Source: a virus. From it: DNA of 27,992 bases. Shown here in pieces: positions 2,681 to 26,992 of this stretch. Location of the stretch: positions 1-27,992 of the IMG/VR virus record IMGVR_UViG_3300021091_000327. One strand, 5' to 3'. Within the stretch, counting starts at the first letter, position 1. The number at the start of each line of letters is the position of its first letter. Both the position numbers and the translations under genes were made by a program. The notes under the pieces were generated by a model that saw only the letters and a program-made list of their open reading frames with translations, was not told the DNA's origin and did no database searches.

Positions 2681-3465
2681 TAAATAGTTGATCCGAGAAT
2701 AGGTTGACCGCCTCTGACGCGCACAAAACCAAGGTTAACGGCCTTGCCTGCCAAGACTCTATCGAGTTTTCGCTGAGTTGTTCCAATTCTAGAACGCAAA
2801 ACGGCGTCAACGTCCTTCTGATAATTAGGAATCTTCACATTGAAGTTGCGCGCGACGATAAACGGATTTGGTCCAAAGTTGGAAACTTGAGAGCCAGACT
2901 TTCCCTCAAACTTACCTGAGAACTTTTTCCATCGTGCGCCAGTTACACGAGCAGCAGGAATCCAGCCAGACACTGTCCATCCGACGCGCTCTTGAACGCC
3001 CTTCATGACTTGCCTTGCGTCCTTCGCATATGCGGCAAATTGTTTTGCGCCGCTGTGAACTCGACCATATCGAGTGCGACGTTTCTTGTGCAGCTCGGTG
3101 ATTTGATTCGCATTAGTCAGCAGTCGCAACCCGAAGTAGCCTTTTAGGTTCGGATTGTTGAACAATTGCTGAAGCTTGCTCGACTCGCGCTTGCGAATGT
3201 AGCGAGAGATAGATCGATAGAAACCGCTTTCCGTTTCGCGCTCCTTGAAGTAGTCGTGACGCAGCGGAGTGATCAGCTTTCCAAAGTCTTTCGAGATCGC
3301 CTTGCGACCTTGTGACTGCGTATCAGGAGGAGTAAACTTGATCAGCAGTTGCGTTACGTATCGCGCCTCTTCCTTGATGACAGCGCCATAGCTGACGCGG
3401 CCAGCCGACGCCAAGCGAAACAAGGCATTCTCTAGATCCTTTGTGCGTAGCTCAAGCGAGATCAT
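2680..3465 (-). CDS. Tail completion / minor tail protein (lambda gpZ-like)
   Basis: This is a 261-residue basic protein with many Arg and Lys residues (for example ELHKKRRTRYGRVHSGAKQ). ATG 3465 overlaps the previous stop in an ATGA junction. Its N-terminal half is helical, with IKEEARYVTQLLIKFTPPDTQ near residue 30, a pattern seen in gpZ/HK97 gp10-type proteins that start with a helix and a short 'TP..T' turn. A C-terminal region has FIVARNFNVKIPNYQKDVDAVL. Family members complete the tail-head interface. It sits between the FII-like and U-like genes as in lambda. It is longer than HK97 gp10-type proteins and closer to lambda gpZ. Confidence 0.65.
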   Translation of the reverse strand: MISLELRTKDLENALFRLASAGRVSYGAVIKEEARYVTQLLIKFTPPDTQSQGRKAISKDFGKLITPLRHDYFKERETESGFYRSISRYIRKRESSKLQQLFNNPNLKGYFGLRLLTNANQITELHKKRRTRYGRVHSGAKQFAAYAKDARQVMKGVQERVGWTVSGWIPAARVTGARWKKFSGKFEGKSGSQVSNFGPNPFIVARNFNVKIPNYQKDVDAVLRSRIGTTQRKLDRVLAGKAVNLGFVRVRGGQPILGSTI

Positions 3466-3779
3466 ATCGACTTCTTGACCTCCATCTGCACGCCAGATCC
3501 TTCCGCGTCGAACTCCAGGTTCTCGATGAAATAGGTCACGCCAGCGCGCACCACGTTAGACGTGAGCTGCGGTGCCGTGACGACCTGCGAGGCAAGGAAG
3601 AACACCGTAAACCGACCCTCATCGCGGCGCTGGTCCTCGAAGGACTCGAAGACGTTGCGCGAGTTAGCCCAGATACCTGTGATGCTCACGCCGAACATCG
3701 AGAACGTGATGCCGGCTTGGTCTTGAATGGCGCTGAAGTCGGCCTCCAGCAGAGCAGGATTGAAATCGCGGACGGTCAT
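3462..3779 (-). CDS. Head-tail connector protein (lambda gpFII-like, neck)
   Basis: This is a 105-residue protein with ATG at 3779, starting MTVRDFNPALLEADFSAIQD. The small beta-rich body (FSMFGVSITGIWANSRNV, FTVFFLASQVVTAPQLTSN, GVTYFIENLEFD) resembles the short neck proteins that bind the portal/adaptor complex and receive the tail. It resumes the lambda-like order after the four sugar-related genes inserted behind the capsid gene. Its stop overlaps the gpZ-like start (ATGA). The exact family is not certain: it could be any of the small FII/stopper-type connectors. Confidence 0.6.
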   Translation of the reverse strand: MTVRDFNPALLEADFSAIQDQAGITFSMFGVSITGIWANSRNVFESFEDQRRDEGRFTVFFLASQVVTAPQLTSNVVRAGVTYFIENLEFDAEGSGVQMEVKKSI

Positions 3780-3781
3780 AC

Positions 3782-4489
3782 CTATGCGCCGAATGTCACA
3801 ACCACCGACTTAGGCGTGATGGTATCGTCCTGCGGCGTGCCGGACGGAATGTGGTAGTACCGCTCGCGGACGGCATCGCAAATGATCGCCGGAGCGCTGT
3901 TGATCGTCATCACCTCGCGAGCGTCACGCAGGATACGGATCAGCTCGGGAATGTTCTTTGCCGTGATGAACAGCGACTCAGACCAGCCACGCCAGACGCA
4001 GGCTTCGACCTGCTGAGGGTCGGCAAGGATGCGCATTGGTGCTTTGAACTGCCCAAAGGCGTACTGGCAGACTAGCGCTGGGTTGTACTTGACCGTCTGC
4101 GAGTAGCCAAACGGCGACACGATGGCCGTCTGTGGCCCCATAATGACGTAATCCACTGCGGACCTAGCGGACAGCTTGTCGAAGACAATGCGACGATCCA
4201 TGCCAGCGCATTCAGGCAGCAGGCCGTAGACGTAGTCTTCCCACGACTTGCCGCTTGCTCGGAAGTCGGCGTACCGATTCGGCCAGATCTGAAGGTCGAT
4301 GCGCCGTCCTTTCGCGTTGTGCCGTGGCTCGACCGGCGCTGCGTAGCTGACGGCATCAAAGAGCGAGTGATACTGCGGCATGCACTCGATCAGCACCTCG
4401 ACGCCATCAGCCGCTAAGTGACGCGCAATCGGCAGGCAGCGCAGCACGTCTCCGAGCCGCTCATGGTAGACCAGCACAACGGTTTTCAT
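3782..4489 (-). CDS. GT9-like glycosyltransferase (heptosyltransferase family type)
   Basis: This is a 235-residue protein. I chose ATG 4489 (MKTVVLVYHERLGDVLRCLP) because it makes an ATGA overlap with the upstream gene and begins directly with the first beta-strand of a GT-B fold. The RLGDVLRCLPIARHL segment matches the nucleotide-sugar glycosyltransferase family 9 opening motif, where the G-D pair lies in the acceptor-side loop. The C-terminal part has a D/N-rich loop (REVMTINSAPAIICDAVRE) where family 9 enzymes usually have DT.-.HLA. The protein is shorter than bacterial heptosyltransferases (about 320-350 residues), and the usual terminal HLA motif is altered, so it may be a reduced or divergent enzyme. 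It is the last gene of a sugar-related cassette. Confidence 0.65.
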   Translation of the reverse strand: MKTVVLVYHERLGDVLRCLPIARHLAADGVEVLIECMPQYHSLFDAVSYAAPVEPRHNAKGRRIDLQIWPNRYADFRASGKSWEDYVYGLLPECAGMDRRIVFDKLSARSAVDYVIMGPQTAIVSPFGYSQTVKYNPALVCQYAFGQFKAPMRILADPQQVEACVWRGWSESLFITAKNIPELIRILRDAREVMTINSAPAIICDAVRERYYHIPSGTPQDDTITPKSVVVTFGA

Positions 4490-5259
4490 ACGTCGCCAGC
4501 AGTTACCCAAGGCTGCCGGTCAAGAAACTTAAAGTAGTCGCAGAGCCGCACGTCACCCTTCGCTTCCTGCAATAGACGCCAGCCGTCGACCAGTCCCTTG
4601 TACTGATAGAACTGCTCCTTGAATGCGACCTGCTCCTCGGTGAAATATGCGTAGTGATCGAACACAAGACCCATCGCCCGCGTCGTTTCGCGCGGAACAT
4701 AGCTCGCCCAAGCGTTCAACACCGGCGGCTCGTGAGTATTGAAGTGCAGTCCTGGTGCCATCTTCCAAGCGCGAAACCACTCGTAAGGCATTGATCCAAA
4801 CCCGTGACGCGACGTCACGACCTTGTGCGGACCCACAAAGTAAAAACAGTCGAACTGTGCGAAGTCGCCAGCCTTCTTGTCCTGCAACATCTCGTAGACT
4901 CGCTCTAGCTGGTCAGCAGTCCAGAACTCGTCAGCGTCGATCTGCATGACGACGCCATCGGTGACGTCCTCCATTGCGGCGTTGACCATCGCGATCTTGC
5001 CAGCCCAAGGACCGAGCCGCCACGTCACGCGCACGCGCGGATCTGTTATGCTGTCGAGGTACTCGGTCGTCCCGTCAATGGACAGCCATTCCCGGTGCCA
5101 GCGGTCCTGGACCTCGGCGCACCACGACGTGCATTCCTGTGGACGCGAAACACCTTCCACAATGTGCCAGCGCCACGGAATCGTGAGCTGCTGAAAGATC
5201 GGCAACTGCTTATCGATGAACGGTTTCCCATTCAAAACAATAGTGAAGATGGTCAGCAT
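4486..5259 (-). CDS. GT2-type glycosyltransferase
   Basis: This is a 257-residue protein. ATG 5259 (MLTIFTIVLNGKPFIDKQL) is preferred over an in-frame GTG at 5271; both overlap the methyltransferase stop. The N-terminus is the first strand and loop of a GT-A fold ('TIVLNG'). The segment GVVMQIDADEFWTADQLE at about residues 102-119 contains the D-A-D metal and nucleotide-sugar binding motif (Asp108, Asp110). The enzyme should transfer a sugar from an activated donor; donor and acceptor cannot be read from sequence. It overlaps the GT9-like gene downstream by an ATGA junction, so the cassette is almost certainly co-translated. Confidence 0.8.
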   Translation of the reverse strand: MLTIFTIVLNGKPFIDKQLPIFQQLTIPWRWHIVEGVSRPQECTSWCAEVQDRWHREWLSIDGTTEYLDSITDPRVRVTWRLGPWAGKIAMVNAAMEDVTDGVVMQIDADEFWTADQLERVYEMLQDKKAGDFAQFDCFYFVGPHKVVTSRHGFGSMPYEWFRAWKMAPGLHFNTHEPPVLNAWASYVPRETTRAMGLVFDHYAYFTEEQVAFKEQFYQYKGLVDGWRLLQEAKGDVRLCDYFKFLDRQPWVTAGDV

Positions 5260-5801
5260 TGCGTGATCCACGACTGACCGACAACCGTGTAGAGCCCGAC
5301 CGTCTCAGCGACTGCGCGTCTGACTCCATCGTATCCCCCAAAGTCATGACCGGCCAAGTAGCCGCCAGGCTGCACCTTGTTTCGCCAGTGCATAATGTCA
5401 GCGCGAACATCCTCGTATTGATGCGATGCGTCGATAAATACCGCGAACACCGACTTATCGTCGAACAGCTTGGACGCTTCGGTCGACGGCAACGGCAAGC
5501 AATGCACCGCGTGCAGGATCGGCTTTATGTTTCCAAGGAAGTGACCGACCATTGAGCCAGTCGCAAGCTGCGGATGGCCTGCGTGCTCCATGCTGCCTCG
5601 GAATGTGTCGACCGCGTACAGCTGCAAGCGCTTCTGGCTTTTGATCGCCTCGACGCCGAGGAACGCCATCGACCGACCGCGCCACGAACCGACCTCGACA
5701 ATGGTTGCACCTGGTGGCGCTTCCTCGACGAAGCGCAAGTAGATGTTCGCATAGTCAAACCAGTTCTCACCAAACCGCGACTCGTGGTAGAAGTGGTTCA
5801 T
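5253..5801 (-). CDS. Class I SAM-dependent methyltransferase (small-molecule or sugar type)
   Basis: This is a 182-residue protein starting at ATG 5801, in an ATGA overlap with the upstream glycosyltransferase. It has SAM-binding motif I TIVEVGSWRGRS at about residues 33-44 and an acidic end of strand 2 at YAVDTFRG (Asp65). FIDASHQYEDVRADI at 122-136 follows (Asp124, His127), then LAGHDFGGYDGVRRAV. The D-x-S-H-x-Y-E-x-V-x-x-D pattern is characteristic of the Methyltransf_24/CmcI-like group, whose members O-methylate sugars, macrolides and other small molecules. Lying between two glycosyltransferases, its likely job is methylation of a sugar residue. There is no DNA methyltransferase motif. 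Confidence 0.8.
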   Translation of the reverse strand: MNHFYHESRFGENWFDYANIYLRFVEEAPPGATIVEVGSWRGRSMAFLGVEAIKSQKRLQLYAVDTFRGSMEHAGHPQLATGSMVGHFLGNIKPILHAVHCLPLPSTEASKLFDDKSVFAVFIDASHQYEDVRADIMHWRNKVQPGGYLAGHDFGGYDGVRRAVAETVGLYTVVGQSWITQC

Positions 5802-7489
5802 GGGTTGCGGGAGTCGAACAGTTCCTTGCCGCGCTTGTAACGCTCGCTCTGGTTATTGTGCCGGTACGTCGGATCGAGCGGACCGTTGCTAAAATGCGGA
5901 TGATCGTGAACGAACGTCACCTTGTCGCGTGCGTCGATGACGATCTTGTCGGCCCAAGCTCGATGGCTAAACTCGTTGTCCGAGAAAACCGACTCGTAGC
6001 CGGCAAAGAACATATCGCCCTGTGCCTCCAACCGTGCGCGCGACATAATCGCCATGCACATCAGCTCGTCCTTGCGGTGGCCGTCGTGTACGGCGATGAC
6101 TAGCTGCTCCTTCTTCAGATCGCGCAGCGCGACTAGTTCCAAGAGCTGCAAATCCCAGTGCAGCGGCGGCAGCCAGTCGTCGGAAAGCTGAATCAGCAGG
6201 TCGCCTTGCGCCTTGCGTGCGCCTAAGTTCCAAGCTGCAACGCAGCTCTGCTCCTTGCTCGTGACGTGAACGAACTGTTGCGCCATCTCCATCGAGACGC
6301 CGTCGTCGATGTCGACGCAGAAGATGTGCTCGACGTTGGCCGGATTTGCGGCGGCTTGGAGGAAGGCTTCGCGGCAGGCAACGGCTTTGCTGGACCGCCC
6401 GCGCGTGGCATGGATCAGCGAGATCGTCGGCTCCTTGCCGCCGTGGAAGTGATCTTGCAGGTGCTGCGCTCGCTCGGCGTGGCCTGCGTAGCGTGCCGCG
6501 CGTGCCGCTAGATCGACTCCATACCAACCGTAATGCTTGGCCTCATGCGTCCACGGTCGATCCTCCAATGGCGGTTCGGGACGCTCTAGCGCGCGTTCTG
6601 CCCAGTAGTAGGCACGCTGCCGGTCGCCCTTCTCAAAGTACAGCAGGATCAGCGCGTTCAGTGCCTCGCGACACCACGGGAAGACACCATGCGCTTGCAG
6701 ACAGTAGTTGATGGACTCGCGGTGATTGCCGCAGCAGCGCGCAACGTTCAGCAATGCCTCGTACTTAAACGAGTCTTGCAAATTCGGCATTGAGATCGCC
6801 AGCTTGCCGAACTCCTCCGCTGCCTTGAAATTGCCCGAGCAGTAGTGCTCCTGATGAATGTAAAAATACTGCGATGCAGCGTCCCGTACTGAGTTCCGCA
6901 GGATCCGCAGGTTGCGGTGCCGGTTCTCGCGCTTGACCTCCAGCGGCGCATGAATCCAGACCGGATCGTCGAGGTCGATGTGCTTGTCGCCGGCGAGCAG
7001 AAGCAAATTCTCATGAACGTCGTGATGCCACTTGCGACCGGCCTCGAACGTACTGCGTCGGATCGCTCGCTCGCGGAACAGCTTCTTGCTGGTGCCTCGG
7101 ACGTCGTAAAGGAAGCGCGCCATCGAAACCTCGTCAGGCAGGCCAGCCAGAACCTCCTTGAGTCGATCTGCGTTGTCCAGCAGGTCGTCGCAATCGGACC
7201 AGATCAGCCAGTCACCAGTGCCTTGGCGGAAGGCTTCGTTGCGCGCTTCACCGAACGAGTCGACGTGCTCCCAATGCTCTGCGCCAGGCTGGTTCAGGTG
7301 CTCGCGGAAACGGAATGTCTTGTCCTTGGCCTCGCACCAGTCGCGCGCGATAGACAGCGTGCGATCAGGCGTGCGTGCGCCTATAGCTCGGACCAGCGAC
7401 AGTTCATCGAACGCTGGACTGAACGAGTCCAGCATACGCTCGATGTGCTGCTCCTCATTACCGCAGATGACGCAAAGCGATACGCGCAT
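5798..7489 (-). CDS. Double GT2-type glycosyltransferase with TPR-like middle
   Basis: This is a 563-residue protein, taken from ATG 7489 (MRVSLCVICGNEEQHIERML). An in-frame upstream codon would place the start inside the terminator hairpin, so I rejected it. Residues 1 to about 200 form one GT-A domain, with WSDCDDLLD at 97-105 as the D-x-D site. Residues about 210-345 are helical pairs of TPR type (SGNFKAAEEFGKLAI; EKGDRQRAYYWAERAL). From about 354 a second GT-A-like domain starts (PTISLIHATRGRSSKAVACRE), with FCVDIDDG at 390-397 and QLSDDWLPP at 434-442. Two transferase domains in one chain suggest stepwise addition of two sugars. The gene is the first after the capsid terminator and leads a tightly overlapping four-gene cassette. 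No Shine-Dalgarno sequence is visible before the chosen start. Confidence 0.8.
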   Translation of the reverse strand: MRVSLCVICGNEEQHIERMLDSFSPAFDELSLVRAIGARTPDRTLSIARDWCEAKDKTFRFREHLNQPGAEHWEHVDSFGEARNEAFRQGTGDWLIWSDCDDLLDNADRLKEVLAGLPDEVSMARFLYDVRGTSKKLFRERAIRRSTFEAGRKWHHDVHENLLLLAGDKHIDLDDPVWIHAPLEVKRENRHRNLRILRNSVRDAASQYFYIHQEHYCSGNFKAAEEFGKLAISMPNLQDSFKYEALLNVARCCGNHRESINYCLQAHGVFPWCREALNALILLYFEKGDRQRAYYWAERALERPEPPLEDRPWTHEAKHYGWYGVDLAARAARYAGHAERAQHLQDHFHGGKEPTISLIHATRGRSSKAVACREAFLQAAANPANVEHIFCVDIDDGVSMEMAQQFVHVTSKEQSCVAAWNLGARKAQGDLLIQLSDDWLPPLHWDLQLLELVALRDLKKEQLVIAVHDGHRKDELMCMAIMSRARLEAQGDMFFAGYESVFSDNEFSHRAWADKIVIDARDKVTFVHDHPHFSNGPLDPTYRHNNQSERYKRGKELFDSRNP

Positions 7490-7507
7490 TGCGTAGTACG
7501 AACCGTC

Positions 7508-7549
7508 AAAAAAGGAAAATCCCCCCACCCGCTACGCAGGTGAGGGGAT
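7508..7549 (-). terminator. Intrinsic terminator after the major capsid gene
   Basis: On the minus strand ATCCCCTCACC (7549-7539) pairs with GGTGGGGGGAT (7529-7519) around a 9-base loop: 11 pairs with one G-U wobble. The stem is followed at once by TTTCCTTTTTT (7518-7508). This is a strong Rho-independent terminator shape, about 20 bases past the capsid stop. It should lower transcription of the downstream sugar and tail genes relative to the capsid. Confidence 0.9.
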
Positions 7550-7570
7550 AACACAACAACCCAACAGAGT

Positions 7571-8536
7571 TTAGGCGTACTGCGTCGCGACGATCTGCGC
7601 CGCGTTGCTGTTAACAACCTTCTCGGAAACGTAGTGCGCAGCCCGGACGATGTCTGACTTGATCGACTCGTCACGGTAGGTGAACACGCCAGTCGGACTG
7701 CCGTACTCCTGCCAGTTTAGAGTGAAGCCCGTGCCGCCGCCGAAATAGCCGGAGGAGGCATCGGTCACAGAACCGACCCAGATGTACGAGTTTGACCAGA
7801 CGTTCGCGCTCGAGAAGGCGAGACCTTCCTTAGCGCTGTCGTAGCTGGCACGACCGATGAGAACCTCGGCAACGCCGAAGACCTCGGCAGCGGCCTGCTG
7901 CGAAGCGTTGAGGATCGTGTCGGTCGACAAACCCGTACCGCGAAGGCGGTTCTGGAATTTGGTCGACGCCTTGATGCGCGTCCACACCGTGTTGCTCATG
8001 ACAACCCGGAGGTTGTCGCGGCTTTCACCCAGCGCCAGGATGCGGTCAATGGCGGACTCAACGTCCAGACCCACGTCGAACGTGGCAAGGTTGGCCGTCG
8101 TGTAGGCGGTGCTAGAGTTAGTCGTTGTGAACGTTGAAGTGTTGAAGATCTGCGCAGCGACGCGCAGCTCGTGAGCGAGCAGAAGCTTGCGCAAGCAGAG
8201 CTTGGCGGCAACGACCTCGGCGTCGAAGAAACGGCTCACGTCCAGCGCGACCGTATCGTCAACCGCTTCCTCGTAGCCGTACTCTTCGGCGGTGTAGGTC
8301 TCCTGCGTGAACGAGCGGGTGCCGCGCGCATACGTCGAGTACGGCGTGCGGTTCTTGACGTCGCTCTTGAGCAGCTGGCCTTCCTTTAGCTTGAAGCAAG
8401 GATACTGACCAGCGCGGAGGGGAACATTGAGGATGGGCATCACTCGCGTGCCGATCAGGTTGGACTCAAAGTCCTTGGCCTGCTCGACAACGCCAGCGAG
8501 ATCGCTACGAAAAATGGCAGCAGCGTTAGTGTACAT
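7571..8536 (-). CDS. Major capsid protein (lambda gpE-like position)
   Basis: This is a 321-residue protein starting at ATG 8536 (MYTNAAAIFRSDLAGVVEQ). Features typical of HK97-fold capsid subunits are an N-terminal region with a long extended arm and loop (FKLKEGQLLKSDVKNRTPY), a spine helix region (FFDAEVVAAKLCLRKLLLA) and a peripheral domain ending RVVMSNTVWTRIKAS. The C-terminal part contains WVGSVTDASSGYFGGGTGFTL and IVRAAHYVSEKVVNSNAAQ, common to capsid proteins of this group. It follows the decoration gene, as in lambda D-E, and is followed by a strong terminator. It has no recognisable Shine-Dalgarno sequence, which is odd for what should be a very highly expressed gene. Confidence 0.9.
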   Translation of the reverse strand: MYTNAAAIFRSDLAGVVEQAKDFESNLIGTRVMPILNVPLRAGQYPCFKLKEGQLLKSDVKNRTPYSTYARGTRSFTQETYTAEEYGYEEAVDDTVALDVSRFFDAEVVAAKLCLRKLLLAHELRVAAQIFNTSTFTTTNSSTAYTTANLATFDVGLDVESAIDRILALGESRDNLRVVMSNTVWTRIKASTKFQNRLRGTGLSTDTILNASQQAAAEVFGVAEVLIGRASYDSAKEGLAFSSANVWSNSYIWVGSVTDASSGYFGGGTGFTLNWQEYGSPTGVFTYRDESIKSDIVRAAHYVSEKVVNSNAAQIVATQYA

Positions 8537-8548
8537 GGTAGGTAGCTA

Positions 8549-8902
8549 TTAGAGGTTCTTCGCGATGAACTCGATGATCGCGCCATCGGTATCAGCGGTC
8601 GTGAGGCTCTTGCCGATAATCACCGTCCCGGCGGGACCGACCTGACCTGACGCATTTGCGTAGATGGTGTCACCCACCGTTACGGGAGCGCCGACGAGCG
8701 TACCCTTCTGGGTGCCGCCTTGGTTGAGGAACTTCACGGTGACATAGTCGCCGGAAGCCGCATCGATCTGGGCGATGCCGTCAACGCTGCCAGCCGTAGC
8801 CGACAGACCGACGCCACCGTTCGTTGAGATGACCACAGCGCGGAATGCGGTGATGGTCGCGTTGGCAAGGAAGGATCCCGTGCCGAAGTACTGAGTGCTC
8901 AT
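8549..8902 (-). CDS. Head decoration / capsid-stabilising protein (DUF2190-like)
   Basis: This is a 117-residue, small-residue-rich beta protein starting at ATG 8902. It contains TITAFRAVVISTNGGVGLS, DGIAQIDAASGDYVTVKFL and the alternating small-residue segment GDTIYANASGQVGPAG. This pattern of a ligand-free barrel with 'DG.a......G....V' is familiar from DUF2190-type capsid accessory proteins that bind the outside of expanded heads. It lies between the protease/scaffold gene and the major capsid gene, where lambda has gpD, and has the size of gpD (110 residues). Like the capsid gene it has no visible Shine-Dalgarno sequence and shares the bases CTACC directly before ATG. Confidence 0.75.
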   Translation of the reverse strand: MSTQYFGTGSFLANATITAFRAVVISTNGGVGLSATAGSVDGIAQIDAASGDYVTVKFLNQGGTQKGTLVGAPVTVGDTIYANASGQVGPAGTVIIGKSLTTADTDGAIIEFIAKNL

Positions 8903-8908
8903 GGTAGT

Positions 8909-9850
8909 TTAGAGTTTGATGACCTCACCGGCCTGCACGCGGGAGCGGAAGGCGGCGTATTCGTTAGAGTGATTCTTGACGCAGAACGCGATGGCCGCGC
9001 TCTTGTCGCCTTTCAGCTCGGAAGCCTTGGCAGCGACCAGCTCCTCGAACTTCTGCGTAACCGGAGCGGCGGCGGCAGGAGCTTCAGAGGCGATCGGCTT
9101 GGTGACCGGAGCGCCAAACGTCTTGGCAAACTCCTTGACAGCAGCAAGACCAGCCGCTTCAGCAGCGAGCTTGATCTCGTCGTTACGGGAAGCCATAGCG
9201 GCTTCCTTGTCCTCAGGCTTCGGCAGCATCGACTCCAGCTTGGAGATCCGCTCGCCCAGGCCCATCATAGCCGACTCAATCATGCCGGCGATGGCGTTTT
9301 TGGTTTCTTCGTTCATGGGGAAATCAATGTATATAGAGTCTTTCGGCTCTTTGCCTTCTTGGAGCTGTTTCATACTGAAAAGTCCATTGACGTTCGCAGC
9401 CGGCTCGCTGACCAGATCGCAAGAATAAATCTCCGAGCAGCGCTGAAGGACCGTCTTCTTGTCCGACGCCATCTCGGTCGGACCAGAGAACGCAATAGAC
9501 ATCCCGAACGTGTCGGGAATCTTGTCGGCGATCTCGAAGATGTACGCGCGATGCGGCGTGTTTTGCAGGACGTGGAAGTTTGCGATCAGCTTATTGCCGG
9601 CGATACGGAAGTCGGTCAGGTAGCCGACGATGTCAGCCGCGCCGCCGCCGTGGTCCATTTTCACTTTGAGACCGCCGCTGTACGTCTCAGCCTGTGCCTT
9701 GACCTGCTCAAGCGTGGTCGCGTCGATGTTGACACCATGACCCAGCGCGCGTCCCTCGGTGATGACCGAGACATCGTGAATCACGCCAGCCGCCTCGTCG
9801 ATTTGACCGACGAAACCGCGAGCAAAGTGCAAGAATGGAGCTTTACTCAT
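8909..9850 (-). CDS. Prohead protease with C-terminal scaffold-like domain
   Basis: This is a 313-residue protein starting at ATG 9850. Residues 1 to about 165 look like a caudoviral prohead serine protease of herpesvirus-assemblin type. KVKMDHGGG at 62-70 gives the candidate catalytic His67, DTFGMSIAFSG at 113-123 gives Ser118, and SCDLVSEPAAN at 143-153 offers the third acidic residue. Residues about 179-313 are helical and Ala/Glu/Lys-rich, ending in EYAAFRSRVQAGEVIKL, as expected for a scaffold domain removed after head assembly. Lambda separates these jobs into C and the nested Nu3 gene. Here Met179 could start a nested scaffold, but it has no ribosome site. The gene lies 22 bases from a small membrane protein gene and just before the decoration gene. 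Confidence 0.8.
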   Translation of the reverse strand: MSKAPFLHFARGFVGQIDEAAGVIHDVSVITEGRALGHGVNIDATTLEQVKAQAETYSGGLKVKMDHGGGAADIVGYLTDFRIAGNKLIANFHVLQNTPHRAYIFEIADKIPDTFGMSIAFSGPTEMASDKKTVLQRCSEIYSCDLVSEPAANVNGLFSMKQLQEGKEPKDSIYIDFPMNEETKNAIAGMIESAMMGLGERISKLESMLPKPEDKEAAMASRNDEIKLAAEAAGLAAVKEFAKTFGAPVTKPIASEAPAAAAPVTQKFEELVAAKASELKGDKSAAIAFCVKNHSNEYAAFRSRVQAGEVIKL

Positions 9851-9872
9851 TACAATTGCTGCAAGCGTTAAA

Positions 9873-10070
9873 TCACGGCTTGTCGTTTACTCCCTTTTCG
9901 AGCGCCTTGAGCTTCTTTAGAATCCAGATCATTGAGAGCACCGACACGCCAAGCGATGCAACGCCGGACAGAATAGCTAGAACAACCTGCACGTTTTGCA
10001 GGCTCATAATAGTTCCGAGCCATGCGCCAAGGTTGGCGAACAGCAGTTTGGTTCCGGCGTGATCGTTCAT
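9873..10070 (-). CDS. Small membrane protein, holin candidate
   Basis: This is a 65-residue protein. ATG 10070 (MNDHAGTKLLFANLGAWLG) is chosen because it makes an ATGA overlap with the upstream membrane protein gene. It has one clear hydrophobic segment (VQVVLAILSGVASLGVSVLS then MIWIL, about residues 28-50) and a weaker one at residues 9-22. It ends in a charged tail KKLKALEKGVNDKP. Size, charge distribution and pairing with another small membrane protein fit a holin or holin partner that would permeabilise the host inner membrane at lysis. No endolysin is seen beside it, so the function is a guess from topology. Confidence 0.6.
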   Translation of the reverse strand: MNDHAGTKLLFANLGAWLGTIMSLQNVQVVLAILSGVASLGVSVLSMIWILKKLKALEKGVNDKP

Positions 10071-10501
10071 TTGCGCGTCGGTTGATTCATCTGCGTCGTC
10101 ATGCGTGAGCCGAACCACCATGCGACGGAGGTTCCGGCCAACATCTGGAAAGACTGTAGCGCGTTAGCTTTTACGGCTTCGTCGTCGATAATCAGAATTG
10201 CGACGAATGCGCCGACGACCAAGAACGCAGTCAGCGCTGGTCGAGTGACGGCGCGAACATTAGCGGCCCACGGCGCGACCTTCTCGGTCATATCCGATGC
10301 AGATGCGGACTGTGACGCCATAAATGCATTCCATGACGCAACCGCCTCGGCTGACGCTGCTTGCTTGTCGAGCAGGTTGAGCTGAAACTGGTTATCCAGT
10401 TTCTTTTCGCGCAGGCGCATCCAGGTTGTCGCCAGCGACCCGACCATGCCGAACAGACCACCGCTGCCGGCGTTAAATAGTAAGTCAGTTATCCAGCCCA
10501 C
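10067..10501 (-). CDS. Membrane protein resembling the 3TM holin family
   Basis: This is a 144-residue protein. The start is GTG at 10501, giving MGWITDLLFNAGSGGLFGMV, the expected N-terminus for this type. An ATG two bases upstream (10503) is in another frame. A glycine-rich hydrophobic N-terminal stretch, an Ala/Ser helix (LLDKQAASAEAVASWNAFM), a hydrophobic segment VTRPALTAFLVVGAFVAILI (about residues 87-106) and a final one (MLAGTSVAWWFGSRM) recall the phage and gene-transfer-agent 'holin of 3TMs' proteins. The RP preceding the second membrane segment and the W-F-G-x-R motif near the end fit that memory. It is paired by ATGA overlap with a second small membrane protein. No Shine-Dalgarno sequence is seen. 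Confidence 0.65.
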   Translation of the reverse strand: MGWITDLLFNAGSGGLFGMVGSLATTWMRLREKKLDNQFQLNLLDKQAASAEAVASWNAFMASQSASASDMTEKVAPWAANVRAVTRPALTAFLVVGAFVAILIIDDEAVKANALQSFQMLAGTSVAWWFGSRMTTQMNQPTRK

Positions 10502-10527
10502 ATAGAAGCGGCTGGCGTAAAACTGAA

Positions 10528-10971
10528 CTACGGCTGGTCAGGCCAGATGACGTTGAACGGAAAACCGGACTGCGCAGGCACATCCCGGAGCGCCTGACGG
10601 TAGTTTGCCCACCGAGCTTTCGCCACGTTTTCCAGCGGCGTGTCGTCAAGCTGCGTCCAGTCGCACTCGGATAGCTTGGTGTTGCGTTCGCGGCGCACGG
10701 CAGCCGCCTTCTGCGTGTTAATTTCAGCCTTCTCCTCAGCCGTGTAAGCCCGCCACAGCTTTACCTCCACCACTTCATACGGATCGATGATGAACGTAGA
10801 TCCAACAAACTTCTCGTCTACGGCACCCTCATCAATACGAACCGGAAGCCAGCCAAGGGCACGAAGCTCGTCGTCGTTCAGCCAGTTGAGACCAGACACG
10901 TTGCGCCAACCGTTAGGCAGCGAACGCGGACCGTCGATGACTTGTCCGTTTTCGATGTAAGCGTAGTTCAT
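10528..10971 (-). CDS. Tail/fibre assembly chaperone-like protein (Phage_tail_APC type)
   Basis: This is a 147-residue protein. ATG 10971 (MNYAYIENGQVIDGPRSLP) overlaps the stop of the sulfotransferase fusion as ATGA. The N-terminal 70 residues resemble small fibre-assembly proteins. After a charged helix (AYTAEEKAEINTQKAAAVR), residues about 100-147 have RNTKLSECDWTQLDDTP and WANYRQALRDVPAQSGFPF, closing with a V-I-W-P motif. The arrangement R..L...DWTQL.D....W..YRQ.LRD....G.P..V.WP defines the phage tail assembly chaperone domain. It probably helps the large fibre encoded upstream to fold or trimerise. Confidence 0.8.
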   Translation of the reverse strand: MNYAYIENGQVIDGPRSLPNGWRNVSGLNWLNDDELRALGWLPVRIDEGAVDEKFVGSTFIIDPYEVVEVKLWRAYTAEEKAEINTQKAAAVRRERNTKLSECDWTQLDDTPLENVAKARWANYRQALRDVPAQSGFPFNVIWPDQP

Positions 10972-12728
10972 AATTGAGCGACAGCGGTGCGCAGTTCCTC
11001 CATAGGATGGGTCCACTGACCAAAGACGCTTTGACGAAACAGCCGCATAGAGTTGTAGTAGGGCGTTTTGGGACCGGGTTCCGCATACAGATAATACCCC
11101 ATTACTGGGATGACAACCCACGTTGGCACGCCCATTGCCGCAGCCAAGTGCGAAACGGACGTGCAAGAGCTGATCACAAGGTCGCAGGTGCTGACGGCGG
11201 CTTGGGTGTCAGACCATGTATCAAGGGGCACCGTTTGCGCCCAATCGGGTTTGTATTCCAAGTCGGCGTCCCGTTGCAGGCTGATAAACTCTACGTTGTC
11301 GCGTTTGACGGCATCGAAGAATGGGGGTGCCGGGAACAGCTTGTGGTGCTGGGCCTCAAACTGCTTGTTGCCCGACCAACGCAAACCCACCCGCAGCTTT
11401 TGGGACTGGCGGACATATGGGATCTTGGAAAGGTACGGGTCGCCATGAATCATCTCTTTGGACAGATTCATGTATGCCGGAGCTGACATACCAGCCATCC
11501 AAGCATCGTGGTAGACGCCGTATTCCGCGCCGTGCTGCACCACCGCCGAACAAAGATTGGCGTCGTGGACAAAGCGCACTAGCTCGCCTGAGCAGGAAAC
11601 CACAATGTTGGCTGTCCCAGTTTGGCGGACGTTGCGGATGTAGCCTAGCTGCTGAATCTGATCGCCCAGCCCTCCCTCAAGGTACATGAGCAGCGTAGCA
11701 CAGGGCTTGCCGTCCCACTCCGGCTGGGGCGTGTCGGGCGGACTGTTGCCGAACACTCCTACGTTGCGTCCACGCCGGAGCAGTTGGTGGCCGAGGCGAA
11801 AGTTGCCATCGCGCAGTTCATACCATCCACGATTAAAGGCTGCGCGGTCGTCCGTGGGGCGTTCAATAGCCAGCTTGTCGGCTATGCGTCGTCCCTCGAC
11901 AAAGTTGCCCATCGTGGACGCTGCAAGCTGAAGATCAAGGTCATCTATCTCTGGCTTGGTACGCGGCTCAGGCAACCAGAACTCAGGCTGGCAAAACTGA
12001 GCGTAGTGGTGCTTGAGAACATTTTTTGGCGACTCGTTGTGCTGCCGTGCCAGCTTGGGTTTGATGTCATGCAGACCCGCAACTCCATGTAGCCCTTCGT
12101 CATCCTCTTTGACCGACGACCCATCAATGCGCTCAAAGTCGTAGGCAAACTCTGGCAGATCAAGAAACTTATGGATGCGCTCCAACTCGCGCTTTGGGTT
12201 AGCAAGCAAGTCCTCGTACTCAACAAATAGGAAACAGCTAGGATTGTGTTTATAGCCCGCCTGTAACACTTGATAGGAAGATTTGAGGTGCGCGGCTAAC
12301 GATGACTTAACAATAAACTCATCCAAGTTGTCTGGCTTGGCTACTCGGACAAATGAAGCCATGCAGTCTGGGATGCTGCGAACAGTAGCAATAATGCGCG
12401 GCTTGCTACCAAGCACTTGGCCCATTGCTGACATCACAACTGGAATCGGCCAATTGCGCGACTTATCAATCACCATTGGCTTTTGCGTGAGCTGATCGTA
12501 ATAGCCATCGATCAAGCCACGCATAGCATTAGCGAGCTTCTCCCGTTTAGGATCATTCTTTTCTAGCAGCGGCTCCTTATGCCAAGCTACAGCAACGGCC
12601 TCAAGCGCAGCACCTAATCCAGAGGTCGTGCTGACGTGCGTTAGCGGATTTTGATTAAGAATTGCTGCAAGAACTGTTGATCCGGATCGAGGAATACCGG
12701 AAAGAAAGAGCAGCGTTTTTGTAATCAA
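10968..12728 (-). CDS. Sulfotransferase-glycosyltransferase (GT9-like) fusion protein
   Basis: The likely start is TTG 12728, one base after the RCC1 stop. GAGGAATAATTTG places a Shine-Dalgarno GAGG just before it, and the product begins MITKTLLFLSGIPRSGSTVL (586 residues). Residues 9-18 are the PAPS-binding loop (SGIPRSGST). Residues 115-126 (TVRSIPDCMASF) look like the 3'-phosphate site, together marking a cytosolic sulfotransferase domain of about 255 residues. A TPR-like link follows (TMGNFVEGRRIADKLAIER). The C-terminal 240 residues are a GT9-like GT-B unit: EGGLGDQIQ at 351-359, GLRWSGNKQF at 448-457 and CDLVISSCTSVSHLAAAMGV at 515-534. One chain could thus add a sugar and sulfate it. 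Donors and acceptor are unknown. The gene lies between the RCC1 propeller and the fibre chaperone. Confidence 0.85.
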   Translation of the reverse strand: MITKTLLFLSGIPRSGSTVLAAILNQNPLTHVSTTSGLGAALEAVAVAWHKEPLLEKNDPKREKLANAMRGLIDGYYDQLTQKPMVIDKSRNWPIPVVMSAMGQVLGSKPRIIATVRSIPDCMASFVRVAKPDNLDEFIVKSSLAAHLKSSYQVLQAGYKHNPSCFLFVEYEDLLANPKRELERIHKFLDLPEFAYDFERIDGSSVKEDDEGLHGVAGLHDIKPKLARQHNESPKNVLKHHYAQFCQPEFWLPEPRTKPEIDDLDLQLAASTMGNFVEGRRIADKLAIERPTDDRAAFNRGWYELRDGNFRLGHQLLRRGRNVGVFGNSPPDTPQPEWDGKPCATLLMYLEGGLGDQIQQLGYIRNVRQTGTANIVVSCSGELVRFVHDANLCSAVVQHGAEYGVYHDAWMAGMSAPAYMNLSKEMIHGDPYLSKIPYVRQSQKLRVGLRWSGNKQFEAQHHKLFPAPPFFDAVKRDNVEFISLQRDADLEYKPDWAQTVPLDTWSDTQAAVSTCDLVISSCTSVSHLAAAMGVPTWVVIPVMGYYLYAEPGPKTPYYNSMRLFRQSVFGQWTHPMEELRTAVAQL

Positions 12729-12729
12729 A

Positions 12730-13848
12730 TTATTCCTCGGTAATGGCTGCGGTGTGGTTGGTTCCTGCTGCAACTCTGAACCATGTTGTCAACGCTCCAA
12801 CTTGGACTGGAGATGAACGGTTGGTCGTGTCCCCTAACCCAAGTTGACCAGTAGTGTTTTGCCCAAAGATCCACAAAGTTCCGTCGGTTTTGATGGCTGC
12901 GGTGTGTGTTTGCCCGTTTGCGACGCTACTCCACGTTGTCAACGCTCCAACTTGAACGGGAGATGAACGGTAGGTCGTGTTTCCTTGGCCGAGTTGGCCA
13001 GCGTTGTTGAATCCAAAGGTCCAGAATGTTCCATCCGTTTTAATGGCTGCGGTGTGAAGGCCTCCCGCTGCGACGCTACTCCACGTCGTTAACGCTCCTA
13101 CTTGGACGGGAGATGAACGGCTAGTTGTATCTCCTAGGCCAAGTTGCCCTTGGCTGTTGGATCCCCAAGCCCACAAAGTGCCGTCAGTTTTGATGGCTGC
13201 GGTGTAGAAGTTACCTACGGCGACTTTTGACCACGTTGTTAACGCGCCAACTTGAACGGGAGATGAACGGTCGGTTGTGTCGTTAAGGCCAAGTTGGCCA
13301 GCGTTGTTGCGTCCAAAGGTCCACAGCGTGCCGTCGGTCTTAATGGCTGCGATGTGGTTTCCACTAAAGGGCGCGGCGACTTTTGACCACGTTGTTAACG
13401 CGCCAACTTGCACTGGAGATGAACGGTCGGTTGTATTTCCTTGGCCGAGTTGACCGAAGTAGTTGTATCCCCAAGTCCACAATGTTCCGTCGGTTTTGAT
13501 AGCTGTGGTGAATCTTTGTCCACAAGCTACGCTTGACCATGTGGTTAACGCTCCGACTTGGACGGGAGATGAACGGTAGCCCGTGTCGCCAAGGCCAAGT
13601 TGACCGTGGCCGTTGGCTCCCCAAGCCCACAAAGTTCCGTCGGTTTTGATAGCTGCGGTGTGGAATTGCCCGCCTGCGACGCTACTCCACGTTGTCAACG
13701 CTCCAACTTGAACGGGAGATGAACGGTTGGTCGTGTTTCCTAGGCCAAGTTGCCCTTGGCCGTTAGATCCAAAGGTGTAGAGTTCATACTGGGGGCCACT
13801 CGGCCCAGCACCCGCGCCCATTGCAAGTCTAAGTACGTTCGGGTCCAT
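12730..13848 (-). CDS. RCC1-type seven-repeat beta-propeller virion protein
   Basis: This is a 372-residue protein starting at ATG 13848 and made almost wholly of seven 50-residue RCC1-like repeats. Each reads roughly RSSPVQVGALTTW..VA.G, then HTAAIKTDGTLW, then an aromatic/G/N loop (WGSNSQGQLGLGDTT). The N-terminus supplies the outer strands (YELYTFGSNGQGQLGLG) and the C-terminus ends with the inner strands (VAAGTNHTAAITEE). The chain can therefore close as a seven-bladed propeller with the ends meeting in one blade. Such propellers are common in virion-associated proteins of aquatic phages (recalled). With the fibre gene 5 bases upstream and a fibre chaperone downstream, a role as host-binding or fibre-tip protein is likely. 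The repeats differ mainly at a few loop positions. Confidence 0.85.
   Translation of the reverse strand: MDPNVLRLAMGAGAGPSGPQYELYTFGSNGQGQLGLGNTTNRSSPVQVGALTTWSSVAGGQFHTAAIKTDGTLWAWGANGHGQLGLGDTGYRSSPVQVGALTTWSSVACGQRFTTAIKTDGTLWTWGYNYFGQLGQGNTTDRSSPVQVGALTTWSKVAAPFSGNHIAAIKTDGTLWTFGRNNAGQLGLNDTTDRSSPVQVGALTTWSKVAVGNFYTAAIKTDGTLWAWGSNSQGQLGLGDTTSRSSPVQVGALTTWSSVAAGGLHTAAIKTDGTFWTFGFNNAGQLGQGNTTYRSSPVQVGALTTWSSVANGQTHTAAIKTDGTLWIFGQNTTGQLGLGDTTNRSSPVQVGALTTWFRVAAGTNHTAAITEE
12740..13790. repeat. Seven tandem 150-bp direct repeats inside the RCC1 gene
   Basis: The shared sequence agatgaacgg occurs on the plus strand at 12811, 12961, 13111, 13261, 13417, 13567 and 13717. The spacing is 150 bases five times and 156 once. 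The six extra bases fall in the blade whose protein reads VAAPFSGNHIAAI. Surrounding bases are also highly similar between copies. The array is coding, without spacers, so it is not a CRISPR. Such an array can gain, lose or shuffle blades by recombination. Confidence 0.95.
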
Positions 13849-16810: not shown

Positions 16811-19048
16811 TCAGGCGCTCGGATTAAGTTGACGTTGGCAGACTGCGTAACGTTGCGACTCGTCGGGAAACTCAGCAACAACGGTCGCGTCTCCCATACA
16901 GCGAGTCAGGAACTCCTCGCCACTTTCCGCCGCTGCCGGCGTCGGGAGGACGAACTCTTTTTTCTTTTGCTGAAATGCACTGCGACCGTCCGCAAGCGCA
17001 GCCAGCCACTTTTTCGGCGTGAGATGACGAGCACCGAACGCGACCTCGACCGGCGAATCAAGTTTGAGTTTGCGCGTTTCATCGGCGTTCTCCTTTCGGT
17101 TGAGTCGTTCGACAATCGCATTCGCCCAAGTGCGGCCAGCGTCACCGCCCCAGCCATTCCACGCCTGCCAGCCCTTGCCTTGCTCGTCCCAAGTCGCGCC
17201 TTGCTTGTCGATCTCGTGTCGGTCGAAGTAAGCCTTCATGCGGCGCACGGTATCAGCAGATAGCGCACGCTTGTTGATGATGTCGCGCGCACGCGCTAGA
17301 CCCACGGCAGTCATGCCGCGTTGCGATGCCGGCTTTTTCTCGCGCACATCCAGCGCGCGTTTAGCGTTAGCCGCCATCGCGTCGTTGGGAACGTAGCCGT
17401 CCTCGGCGAAGTCGATGACGATGCGCTGGTTGTGCAGCTCAGAGGCTGCCTGCGAGGCTTCAGGAGCAGCGTCTGCGCTGCTTGCTACCTGAGCCGCCGC
17501 CGCGTCCTGACCGACCTTCTCACCCGTAGCAGCAGCCGCAGCAGCCGTGCTCGGCAGCGCGTTGGTCACAAGACGGATCGCAGTCTCCGGTACGTTGTAA
17601 CGCTGCGCCAATTCCGCGACGAAGTTAGCCTCAATCGCGATCTGCTCCAGGCGACCGAAAGCGTCGGTGCCTTCCTCGGCTGCGATCTCTTGCAGCGACT
17701 TCGCGCCTTGGCGGTTCTCGTTCAGGTTCGCCGCAGACTCGCGCCCGATGTCGATCGTTAGCTTGGCCGGGAAGCGCCACTCGCCGCGCGTCGCACGCTT
17801 CATCGCCTGCACCACAGTCTCGCCTTCACGACGCGGAGGAGCCGGAATCAGTTCGCGCGCGATCGCGTCGAGGATGACCTGGTTCTTGATCGGATCGAGC
17901 ACCTTGTCTTGCAGCAGTCCTTGATGGCGCGTGAACACGCGATCAGCCGCCGCAAAGTCAGCGCGAACGCTCGGTCCCTTGTAGTTCTGCGTTCCGAACA
18001 GAACGCCCTCGGGAATGCCGACACCGATCGCGATCTCGTGCATCAAGTGCTGGACGAAGCCCTCGAAGGCTGCGCTGGGCCTCGACGGCATCACCTCGAT
18101 CTTGTCCGCGCTGCCGAAGTACCGGATGTTGCCGATCTCGCTCAGTTCGTTTTTCTGCGTTTGACCGCTCGGGAGCGTCGACGCCGGCGTCGGCGTGAAC
18201 AGGTTGCGCCCGTTGGCAGTTCCTCGGTCAGAAAATACGAGGGCGGCTTGCTGACTAGCAAAGCGGACGCCAGCTTTTTCAGCTTCAAGAATCTCGTACA
18301 GCATACGAGCCGTGCGGATCGCAGCGTGAAAGTCAGTAACTCCACGGTACTGGTCCACGCGGAAAGGGTCGTAGTAATGGCAAAAGAACTGACTTTCGAT
18401 GTCTTCGGGATCATAATACACGCCCTCTCTGGTCACGCGGAACACTCGGTACGCCACAGGACGACCGAACTCATTCGTGAAGATGCCTTGGAAGTAGTTG
18501 GCCGGATCGGCGCCGAGCGAGTTTGGATTCCCGATGCGCGTGCCAGGCACAAGCTGAATCTTGAGTTCACCATCGACGCGACGAATCACAAAGCCGCAGT
18601 CGCCGTCAACTGGTCGCTGCTCGGCTGCAAGCTGGATCAGCTTCTTAAAGGTGTGGCGATTCGTGACGTCGCACGTCTTGCACCAGTCGTGGAAGTAGTC
18701 CGAGACAATCGCGTTGTACTCGCGGTCGCCGGTCGTCGGCGAGTACTCGTGCGGCGTCAGGTAGTTGCCGAACTTGCGACTGATCTCGCGCGCTTCGGAA
18801 TGGTTCTCCACGAGGTCGCGCGCCTCCCACATCATCACGATGCGGTCGCGAACGGTCGTGTTCGACTCAGACGGCAAGCCATACTGCTTCGGCGCGTAGA
18901 GCCGGTTCGTCTGCGCTGCGTTGTAGTTGAATAGCGCTGCCTGCACGCGCGACTCCATGCGCTTCAGTCCCCACGCCGGCGCAACTGCCGAGATTGCCTT
19001 GTCGTACCACGGTGCCGAGGCGATGACCTTTGAAGCGTCGAAGTCCAT
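16811..19048 (-). CDS. Portal protein (lambda gpB-like) with a long C-terminal extension
   Basis: This is a 745-residue protein starting at ATG 19048 in a TAACATG junction. Residues 1 to about 500 are a lambda-type portal: AAQTNRLYAPKQYGLPSES near the N-terminus, DGDCGFVIRRVDGELKIQLV, PFRVDQYRGVTDFHAAI and IPEGVLFGTQNYKGPSVRAD. Twelve copies would form the DNA channel and packaging vertex. After an Ala-rich linker (about 500-535) the extension contains a separate domain at 553-653. It has GLARARDIINKRALS, MKAYFDRHEIDKQ and the motif WGGDAGRTWA. The last 35 residues have EEFLTRCMGDATVVAEFPDE and a Cys (AVCQRQLNP). I recall these two modules from other phage head proteins, but their role is unknown to me. 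Standard lambda portals (533 residues) lack them. Confidence 0.85.
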   Translation of the reverse strand: MDFDASKVIASAPWYDKAISAVAPAWGLKRMESRVQAALFNYNAAQTNRLYAPKQYGLPSESNTTVRDRIVMMWEARDLVENHSEAREISRKFGNYLTPHEYSPTTGDREYNAIVSDYFHDWCKTCDVTNRHTFKKLIQLAAEQRPVDGDCGFVIRRVDGELKIQLVPGTRIGNPNSLGADPANYFQGIFTNEFGRPVAYRVFRVTREGVYYDPEDIESQFFCHYYDPFRVDQYRGVTDFHAAIRTARMLYEILEAEKAGVRFASQQAALVFSDRGTANGRNLFTPTPASTLPSGQTQKNELSEIGNIRYFGSADKIEVMPSRPSAAFEGFVQHLMHEIAIGVGIPEGVLFGTQNYKGPSVRADFAAADRVFTRHQGLLQDKVLDPIKNQVILDAIARELIPAPPRREGETVVQAMKRATRGEWRFPAKLTIDIGRESAANLNENRQGAKSLQEIAAEEGTDAFGRLEQIAIEANFVAELAQRYNVPETAIRLVTNALPSTAAAAAATGEKVGQDAAAAQVASSADAAPEASQAASELHNQRIVIDFAEDGYVPNDAMAANAKRALDVREKKPASQRGMTAVGLARARDIINKRALSADTVRRMKAYFDRHEIDKQGATWDEQGKGWQAWNGWGGDAGRTWANAIVERLNRKENADETRKLKLDSPVEVAFGARHLTPKKWLAALADGRSAFQQKKKEFVLPTPAAAESGEEFLTRCMGDATVVAEFPDESQRYAVCQRQLNPSA

Positions 19049-26153: not shown

Positions 26154-26413
26154 GCTCCCTCCCTTCGCAGCCTATAAAACGAATGCACCTTGCGAGCGCG
26201 CCGAACGCTCGTCTGCTCGATGTCGTACCCGCGCTTGCGCAGATCAGCAACGCGAGAATGAACAGCGTACCCGCCGCAGGCCGCCACGAGATCGGGCATG
26301 TTAACCCAGCCATCGCGGAGCTGGTCTGCGGTGGTTAAGTTGCGCAGGCGCAAGAGCACCAGTTCGCACTGGGTCAGACCCGCGCCGCACGCGGTAAAGG
26401 TAAATTGGTTCAT
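26150..26413 (-). CDS. Small winged-helix DNA-binding protein (HTH_39-like)
   Basis: This is an 87-residue protein. ATG 26413 (MNQFTFTACGAGLTQCELVL) makes an ATGA overlap with the methyltransferase-like gene. The body WVNMPDLVAACGGYAVHSRV then ADLRKRGYDIEQ is the helix-turn-helix and wing of the small phage HTH_39 family, where (S/A)R(V/I)(A/S)DLR..G..I is conserved. It ends in a basic strand (RRARKVHSFYRLRREGA). It may regulate this replication operon or assist recombination. No operator was found. Confidence 0.75.
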   Translation of the reverse strand: MNQFTFTACGAGLTQCELVLLRLRNLTTADQLRDGWVNMPDLVAACGGYAVHSRVADLRKRGYDIEQTSVRRARKVHSFYRLRREGA

Positions 26414-26967: not shown

Positions 26968-26992
26968 GGGATTCATATAAGTAGAAGCAAGC

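Follow-up and report, generated by a model that had tools for sequence, protein, structure and literature searches.

Glycosylation of the phage virion as such is already known, and the capsid part of the locus described here has published precedent. Corndog and other cluster O phages carry capsid glycosylation genes (PMC4351075), and capsid glycans have been described for Che8 and Rita (PMC11256854); in these mycobacteriophages, modification of the major capsid protein has been proposed or shown for glycosyltransferases and an O-methyltransferase encoded in the head operon. RCC1-repeat proteins have been detected in virions by mass spectrometry, according to excerpts of two reports (PMC11370258; GAP32 in PMC5259590). 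The role of the known phage sulfotransferases has been called unclear (PMC10580990), and our literature searches on sulfated phage fibres and phage tyrosine sulfation returned nothing relevant.

The window analysed here is a 27,992-nucleotide stretch of a contig from an aquatic phage, and a near-identical contig of 36.7 kb is present in IMG/VR. No integrase was detected in the window, nor was an integrase match obtained in seven records of its relatives, some of which are fragments. The open reading frames and their order on the minus strand were as given in a first-pass annotation made from the sequence alone. Family searches assigned TerL, a W-like adaptor, the portal (PF05136), the capsid protein (phrog_1005), the cement protein (PF09956), the major tail protein, the tail terminator, the tail assembly chaperone and the tape measure protein; TerS, a C/Nu3-like protein (8909-9850), Z and FII were assigned by position alone. 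The features discussed below are the following.

3462..3779, minus strand: FII-like gene, end of the capsid cassette (by position)
3782..4489, minus strand: GT9s, short GT9-fold glycosyltransferase (AlphaFold2 model and Foldseek; ATGA overlap with GT2s)
4486..5271, minus strand: GT2s, single GT2 glycosyltransferase (PF00535 7.5e-8, above cut-off)
5253..5801, minus strand: SAM methyltransferase, variable slot of the capsid cassette (Methyltransf_24 1.4e-15)
5798..7528, minus strand: dGT2, core enzyme of the capsid cassette (PF00535 2e-11, phrog_13126, phrog_14945)
7571..8536, minus strand: major capsid protein, candidate acceptor (phrog_1005 1.8e-34)
8549..8902, minus strand: cement/decoration protein, candidate acceptor (PF09956 at cut-off)
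10528..10971, minus strand: tail fibre assembly chaperone (PF16778; ATGA overlap with the sulfotransferase stop)
10968..12728, minus strand: fusion of a TPST-fold sulfotransferase, a TPR-like stretch and a GT9 domain (Sulfotransfer_3 6e-14; fold)
12730..13848, minus strand: RCC1-repeat beta-propeller protein, likely fibre-borne adhesin, candidate acceptor (PF00415 7.7e-91, seven repeats)
13854..16808, minus strand: tail fibre protein (phrog_9017 7.9e-14)
16811..19048, minus strand: portal, upstream border of the adhesin module (PF05136 4.9e-38)

The first-pass annotation had described two sugar cassettes inserted among the structural genes. Both are real, with intact genes, and lie where it had placed them, but the one on the fibre side is no lone insert: the fibre, RCC1, sulfotransferase-GT9 and chaperone genes form an adhesin module between the portal and the C-like gene. 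Family search and fold bear out its tally of six transferase domains, spread over four proteins, in addition to one methyltransferase, and the co-translated set that it had proposed shows overlaps between neighbouring genes at ATGA-type junctions.

The core enzyme of the capsid cassette, dGT2, has a GT-A glycosyltransferase domain in each half and a TPR-like region between them. Its N-terminal half scores above the Pfam cut-off for GT2 (44.6 bits, and 32.9 for GT2s; cut-off 23.3), and its C-terminal half matches the phrog_14945 glycosyltransferase. The motifs DCDD, DxDD and SDDW are invariant in 18 sequences, including the DxD-type motifs D112-C-D-D and D406-x-D-D. Judged by family score and DxD-type motif (motif positions given for dGT2), dGT2 and GT2s are probable members of glycosyltransferase family 2.

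The AlphaFold2 model of GT9s (pLDDT 90.7) has a WaaC/WaaF/TibC fold, with Foldseek matches to a GT9 (3tov), TibC, WaaF and WaaC (E 1e-6 to 1e-5) and conserved RLGD and NSAP motifs; there was no hit to Pfam PF01075, and its profile found no match among PDB sequences. Residues 359-601 of the fusion align with WaaF (VIA-align Z 14.7) and reach 12.9 bits against PF01075, below the cut-off of 22. The GT-B fold of GT9 is thus predicted for GT9s and for the C-terminal half of the fusion, and because both fall below or outside the PF01075 cut-off, they are termed GT9-like in fold rather than proven GT9 members. TibC and the LPS heptosyltransferases are equally good matches to the GT9 domains, an observation that counts against a virion acceptor.

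Residues of the fusion are numbered on the open reading frame 10971-12773 (start 12773), in which the sulfotransferase occupies approximately residues 14-269 and the GT9 domain approximately 359-601, in addition to the TPR-like stretch. The Sulfotransfer_3 match spans residues 23-207, with 53.2 bits against a cut-off of 27. The PRSGST 5'-phosphosulfate loop (P28 R29 S30 G31 S32 T33) and the 3'-phosphate-binding residues R132 and S140 are invariant in 31 sequences. Family score and PAPS-binding motifs together indicate that the N-terminal part is probably a PAPS-dependent sulfotransferase of the Sulfotransfer_3 family. By fold, it is closest to TPST1 (VIA-align Z 16.7, 3.7 A over 231 residues), followed by heparan sulfotransferases (Z 14).

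Conservation in relatives, the check suggested by the first-pass annotation, was found at both sites. dGT2 directly follows the major capsid gene in 113/113 relatives with enough sequence, and the fusion follows an RCC1 gene at 78/78 loci; these locus counts are not independent events, because the loci share ancestry. The order in relatives is capsid gene, dGT2, a variable slot, usually the short GT9, and then FII, which is present after dGT2 at 105 of 106 loci. The slot holds a methyltransferase, a GT2 or a DUF5672 protein; a methyltransferase is found in a minority of relatives, and other enzymes replace it elsewhere. The cassette enzymes are under purifying selection (dN/dS 0.04-0.29), and only 2-3 in-frame stops occur per 81-88 homologues. 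The position and integrity of the cassettes are far beyond chance. Randomly scattered or decayed insertions, the case that would have spoken against the original proposal, are rejected on the basis of the invariant position, the purifying selection and the scarcity of stops; the one exception is a sulfotransferase relic at locus L164. As in a phage virion (capsid) glycosylation system, the head operon holds glycosyltransferase genes at all 113 loci. Relatives of the capsid protein were absent from sequenced phage records.

The linkage on the fibre side is equally strict. An RCC1 gene lies directly upstream of the fusion in several phage backbones, of GT9-only relatives (72/72) and of standalone sulfotransferases (27/28), giving 177/178 for the wider class; among the loci of the GT9-only and standalone sulfotransferase scans, RCC1 directly preceded other open reading frames in 0/632 cases. 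With RCC1 as the starting point, the next gene encodes a sulfotransferase, sulfotransferase-GT9, GT9 or GT8-GT9 at 8 of 13 informative loci; some RCC1 genes (L358, L370) have no adjoining enzyme, which counts against the reading proposed below. The pairing also occurs in S-SRM01, BUCT-ZZ01 and AG-345-E08. Judging from this gene context, the fusion is part of an adhesin module that is mobile, and a sulfotransferase with a dedicated RCC1 partner appears to be undescribed in the literature searched.

The idea that all these enzymes build, methylate and sulfate one glycan did not hold up. Some phages have the capsid cassette but lack the sulfotransferase, and no dGT2 homologue was found within up to 10 kb on each side of sulfotransferase modules on other backbones. 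One joint pathway is rejected because of this two-way separation. This capsid clade acquired the sulfotransferase module on at least two occasions, and the two cassettes are evolutionarily independent.

No convincing APS kinase was found in the MAG that contains the contig, a point against the sulfation proposed below. Tetranucleotide correlations were 0.79-0.83 between the window and three contigs of this MAG and 0.95-0.97 among those contigs, and with these lower values for the window the MAG is not established as the host. A pattern-based scan of GTDB did not confirm dGT2, and 55 relatives of the MAG lack it. The sulfotransferase was found in MAGs on four short contigs only; RCC1 adjoins it in three and lies ~4.5 kb away in the fourth (L234).

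The genes and their linkage suggest that the phages give their own particles a chemical coat. As the best explanation, with a probability of about 0.6, we propose two separate post-translational modification devices, both serving the phage's own particle. The acceptor had been left between the virion and the host surface; positional ties make virion proteins most likely, with the capsid shell and the RCC1 adhesin modified separately. Solved relatives acting on proteins or peptides are TPST for the sulfotransferase, GmaR and SunS for dGT2 and TibC for GT9; the respective substrates of GmaR, SunS and TibC are flagellin, a peptide and an adhesin. Starting from gene identity, folds, PAPS-binding and DxD-type motifs, purifying selection and linkage, we infer protein acceptors, an order of steps, sulfate transfer and a benefit. 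Late in infection, dGT2 would put the first sugar on a shell protein of the capsid, either the major capsid protein or the cement protein, and the enzymes of the variable slot, here methyltransferase and GT2, together with the GT9s would extend or cap it; with the core position fixed and the slot content exchanged, lineages would have different coats. The tail fibre would bear the RCC1 beta-propeller, whose dedicated enzyme is encoded directly after it: the TPR-GT9 half would attach sugar to the propeller, while its fusion partner, the PAPS-dependent sulfotransferase half, would sulfate that sugar or a side chain. The likely benefit would be shielding, or else a change in surface charge and in receptor binding. 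More tentatively, aquatic phages may share a general mobile module of RCC1 adhesin plus modifying enzyme, in which TPR-GT9 and PAPS sulfotransferase, in some cases fused, would yield sulfated glycans of the fibre-borne beta-propeller and hence a sulfated virion.

Instead, the enzymes could change the LPS or capsule of the host at a late stage of infection, so that superinfection or the re-adsorption of progeny is prevented, while the virion itself stays unmodified. GT9 is the family of LPS heptosyltransferases, WaaC and WaaF are among the best fold matches, and the fusion adjoins receptor-binding genes, so it could change the receptor used by the fibre. We nevertheless regard this as unlikely: the fixed place behind the capsid gene would go unexplained, the strict RCC1 tie across backbones fits a protein acceptor better, and the cassette proteins include neither a membrane flippase or membrane glycosyltransferase of the gtr kind nor any TM-like stretch. 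A gtr-type seroconversion cassette was likewise rejected, with no TM-like stretch or Gtr Pfam hit in the cassette enzymes and no integrase match in seven records of relatives, some of them fragments. DNA-base glucosylation was set aside, as the cassettes have no recognisable base-modification gene and sit among virion genes, which would argue against it.

It seems quite improbable that the sulfotransferase half sulfates RCC1 or fibre tyrosines in a TPST-like manner, with the GT9 half separate. Although no solved structure is closer than TPST1/2 in profile or fold, the position of the TPST catalytic glutamate, Glu99 in TPST2 numbering, aligns ungapped with invariant Thr50, and the fold score of heparan sulfotransferases is almost as good (Z 14). 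RCC1 proteins before standalone sulfotransferases do have conserved acidic-tyrosine termini (e.g. TYIDDYQ), but the RCC1 next to the fused enzyme is almost without acidic tyrosine sites, and neither composition nor termini supported a tyrosine-sulfation signature in RCC1 of the fused class. Very doubtful, too, is an inactive sulfotransferase half, now a binding or structural domain beside an active GT9 half, given its invariant PAPS-binding residues (31 sequences), its low dN/dS and the standalone sulfotransferases after RCC1 (27/28), which show this half retained at that position by itself. Such inactivity would fit the GT9-only enzymes in that position (72/72), which make the sulfotransferase half dispensable in relatives, and a MAG without a clear APS kinase.

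The capsid cassette resembles the capsid-glycosylation genes of Corndog and Che8 in enzyme kind and operon setting. In Corndog the genes stand between portal and protease, and in relatives of Che8 close to the end of the genome, whereas the cassette of the window is flanked by capsid and FII in every relative; the accounts of Corndog and Che8 mention no sulfotransferase (PMC4351075, PMC11256854). If the reading of a self-modified virion is true, capsid modification would be a constant feature throughout an environmental phage clade, not a mycobacteriophage peculiarity, and the swappable enzyme slot could diversify the coat. dGT2 shows profile similarity to GmaR and SunS, and the GT9 parts fold similarity to TibC, at low sequence identity and with acceptors that are candidates in the window. 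The sulfotransferase (residues 14-269) has TPST1/2 as its closest solved fold and probably shares this fold, including a PRSGTT-type PAPS loop, but differs in its 13-17% identity, its invariant threonine at the position of the catalytic glutamate, which it appears to lack, and its fused TPR-GT9. The RCC1 product is like the virion proteins of phages W70 and GAP32, for which the excerpts describe no adjoining sulfotransferase or GT9 (PMC11370258, PMC5259590). The PAPS sulfotransferases of cyanophages and OM43 phages (S-SKS1, S-SRM01) share the Sulfotransfer_3 domain with the window. In S-SRM01, one RCC1 gene is followed by TPR-GT9 and another by a sulfotransferase, whereas in the window both activities are predicted within one fused protein. 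If true, phages would sulfate their own adhesion apparatus, giving phage sulfotransferases a role and a testable substrate, and S-SRM01, which is in culture and has these gene pairs, makes the module idea directly testable.

The window constitutes the entire contig C30 of a metagenome-assembled genome (MAG G000; 2.7 Mb, 195 contigs, 99% complete) and is a phage contig. A near-identical IMG/VR record, 3300021376_000164 (36,657 bp), extends the sequence through the remaining tail genes, among them one for a J-like central fibre. A search of the record for an integrase gave no hit. Relatives of the capsid protein were found at 72 IMG/VR loci and in none of the sequenced phages of the INPHARED set. 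Base composition does not clearly assign the window to MAG G000 as host. Two DNA methyltransferase genes were also noted, one with a fused ParB-like domain (phrog_498; 21768-22964), immediately upstream of the terminase genes, and another at 26410-27192 (phrog_757).

The minus-strand genes are ordered as follows, with TerS, C, Z and FII named from position alone.

Gene order on the minus strand
Packaging to adhesin module: TerS, TerL, W-like adaptor, portal, fibre, RCC1-repeat gene, sulfotransferase-GT9 fusion (ST-GT9; 10968-12728), fibre chaperone
Head and capsid cassette: membrane protein(s), C-like gene, cement, capsid, double GT2 (dGT2), methyltransferase, GT2, short GT9
Tail: FII, Z, U, V, G, tape measure

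ATGA-type overlaps join the genes of the capsid cassette and, likewise, the sulfotransferase and chaperone genes. An ORF and domain check upheld the count of enzyme domains in the first-pass annotation. Neither GT9 call reaches the Pfam cut-off, but the fold is GT-B as in WaaC/WaaF: the short GT9 is predicted to adopt it (model pLDDT 90.7), and the modelled C-terminal half of ST-GT9 aligns with WaaF at Z 14.7, the whole fusion being modelled with moderate confidence (mean pLDDT 75).

Every window gene was mapped onto 229 related loci. Where more than 1.2 kb lay behind the capsid gene, dGT2 followed it in 113/113 loci, bearing out the cassette conservation for which relatives were to be searched; the gap is 37-124 bp in most loci and ~740-860 bp in eleven. 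FII comes after dGT2 in 105 of 106 loci, while the interval between them holds Methyltransf_24, Methyltransf_23, DUF5672, GT2 or a protein of no assigned family, and the short GT9 frequently comes next. The capsid cassette thus belongs to the core of these phages, with one slot whose content changes. The dN/dS values of its enzymes (0.04-0.29) lie in the same range as those of the capsid and terminase genes. A profile search of dGT2 against solved structures placed GmaR at the head of the list and SunS lower down, both of which act on proteins or peptides. For the modelled short GT9, matches to LPS heptosyltransferases and to the protein heptosyltransferase TibC are equally good.

ST-GT9, on the other hand, is not tied to the capsid lineage of the window. 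Relatives occur on other phage backbones, one with a different major head protein (L077) and two with the phrog_3287 structural protein (L133, L126). In the ST-GT9 tree, capsid-clade copies require at least three label changes, and the window copy is closer to that of L075, on another backbone (88% identical), than to that of the capsid relative L010 (67%). Since each cassette is found without the other, dGT2 homologues having been sought in up to 10 kb on either side of ST-GT9 on other backbones, and their histories differ, they do not form one pathway, contrary to the single build-methylate-sulfate route proposed initially.

The constant partner of ST-GT9 is an RCC1-repeat gene, immediately upstream in 78/78 loci; a second lies downstream in 34/70. 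Linkage was tested by two independent scans, of GT9-only relatives and of standalone sulfotransferases of the S-SRM01 type. RCC1 was just upstream in 72/72 and 27/28 loci, respectively (in the remaining locus it ends ~460 bp upstream), and for 0/632 other ORFs at these loci; the loci share ancestry and are not independent events, yet their sequences and genomes are very different. Of 13 informative loci scanned from the RCC1 side, 8 continued with ST, ST-GT9, GT9 or GT8-GT9. The pairing extends to cyanophages S-SRM01 and BUCT-ZZ01 and to marine virus AG-345-E08 (23% identity); in the same test, it was not seen near the sulfotransferases of S-SKS1, AG-345-O18 and AG-345-L05.

The capsid-clade relative L018 (2541-4293) carries three tandem 2OG-Fe(II) oxygenase genes between fibre and chaperone, a different type of modifying enzyme in the place of RCC1 and sulfotransferase. 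L367 (296-3102) and L368 add one more variant of the RCC1-enzyme pair, with a GT8-GT9 fusion coming after RCC1. In L164 (1-2361) fibre-RCC1 modules stand in tandem, and only sulfotransferase residues 14-41 are left after the second RCC1, as a relic. RCC1 proteins preceding standalone sulfotransferases (L245-L274) have conserved termini of the type MPTFYNYTENGxVYSFDDVFVPADAFRQG and TYIDDYQ, possibly virion attachment or modification sites.

For ST-GT9 the analysis shows PAPS-binding motifs, folds, RCC1 linkage and selection. We propose that the RCC1 protein would be the acceptor, the TPR-GT9 half attaching a sugar and the ST half sulfate; the occurrence of GT9-only and ST-only versions after RCC1 fits such a two-step device with separately usable parts. 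Tyrosine might be considered as the sulfation target, as tyrosylprotein sulfotransferases (TPSTs) are the nearest fold to the modelled ST half (Z 16.7). However, what we take to be the TPST catalytic-glutamate position is an invariant threonine, and RCC1 proteins adjoining the fused enzyme have hardly any acidic tyrosine sites, so that a glycan or non-tyrosine target is favoured. No convincing APS kinase candidate was detected in MAG G000, whereas 4 of the 18 members of its genus have one. Supply of the PAPS donor therefore depends on the actual host; if this were MAG G000, the source of PAPS would be unexplained.

Both phage capsid glycosylation and RCC1 virion proteins are already known, the latter from mass spectrometry of phages W70 and GAP32 (PMC11370258; PMC5259590). 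Phage sulfotransferases are known as genes, their function being called unclear (PMC10580990). Within a limited literature search, we found neither a systematic pairing of RCC1 with sulfotransferase and/or TPR-GT9 nor a description of the sulfotransferase-TPR-GT9 fusion. In an unrelated podovirus, ctDrO704 (MW202512.1; 3517-8744), a TPR-GT9 relative is encoded shortly behind the major capsid gene, together with an FkbM-type methyltransferase and a gene labelled 'galT-like'. For the capsid cassette there is published precedent: PMC11256854 cites reports of glycans on the capsids of Che8 and Rita, and the head operon of Corndog, like that of the window, contains GT-type genes (three) and a methyltransferase (an O-methyltransferase), proposed to modify the capsid (PMC4351075).
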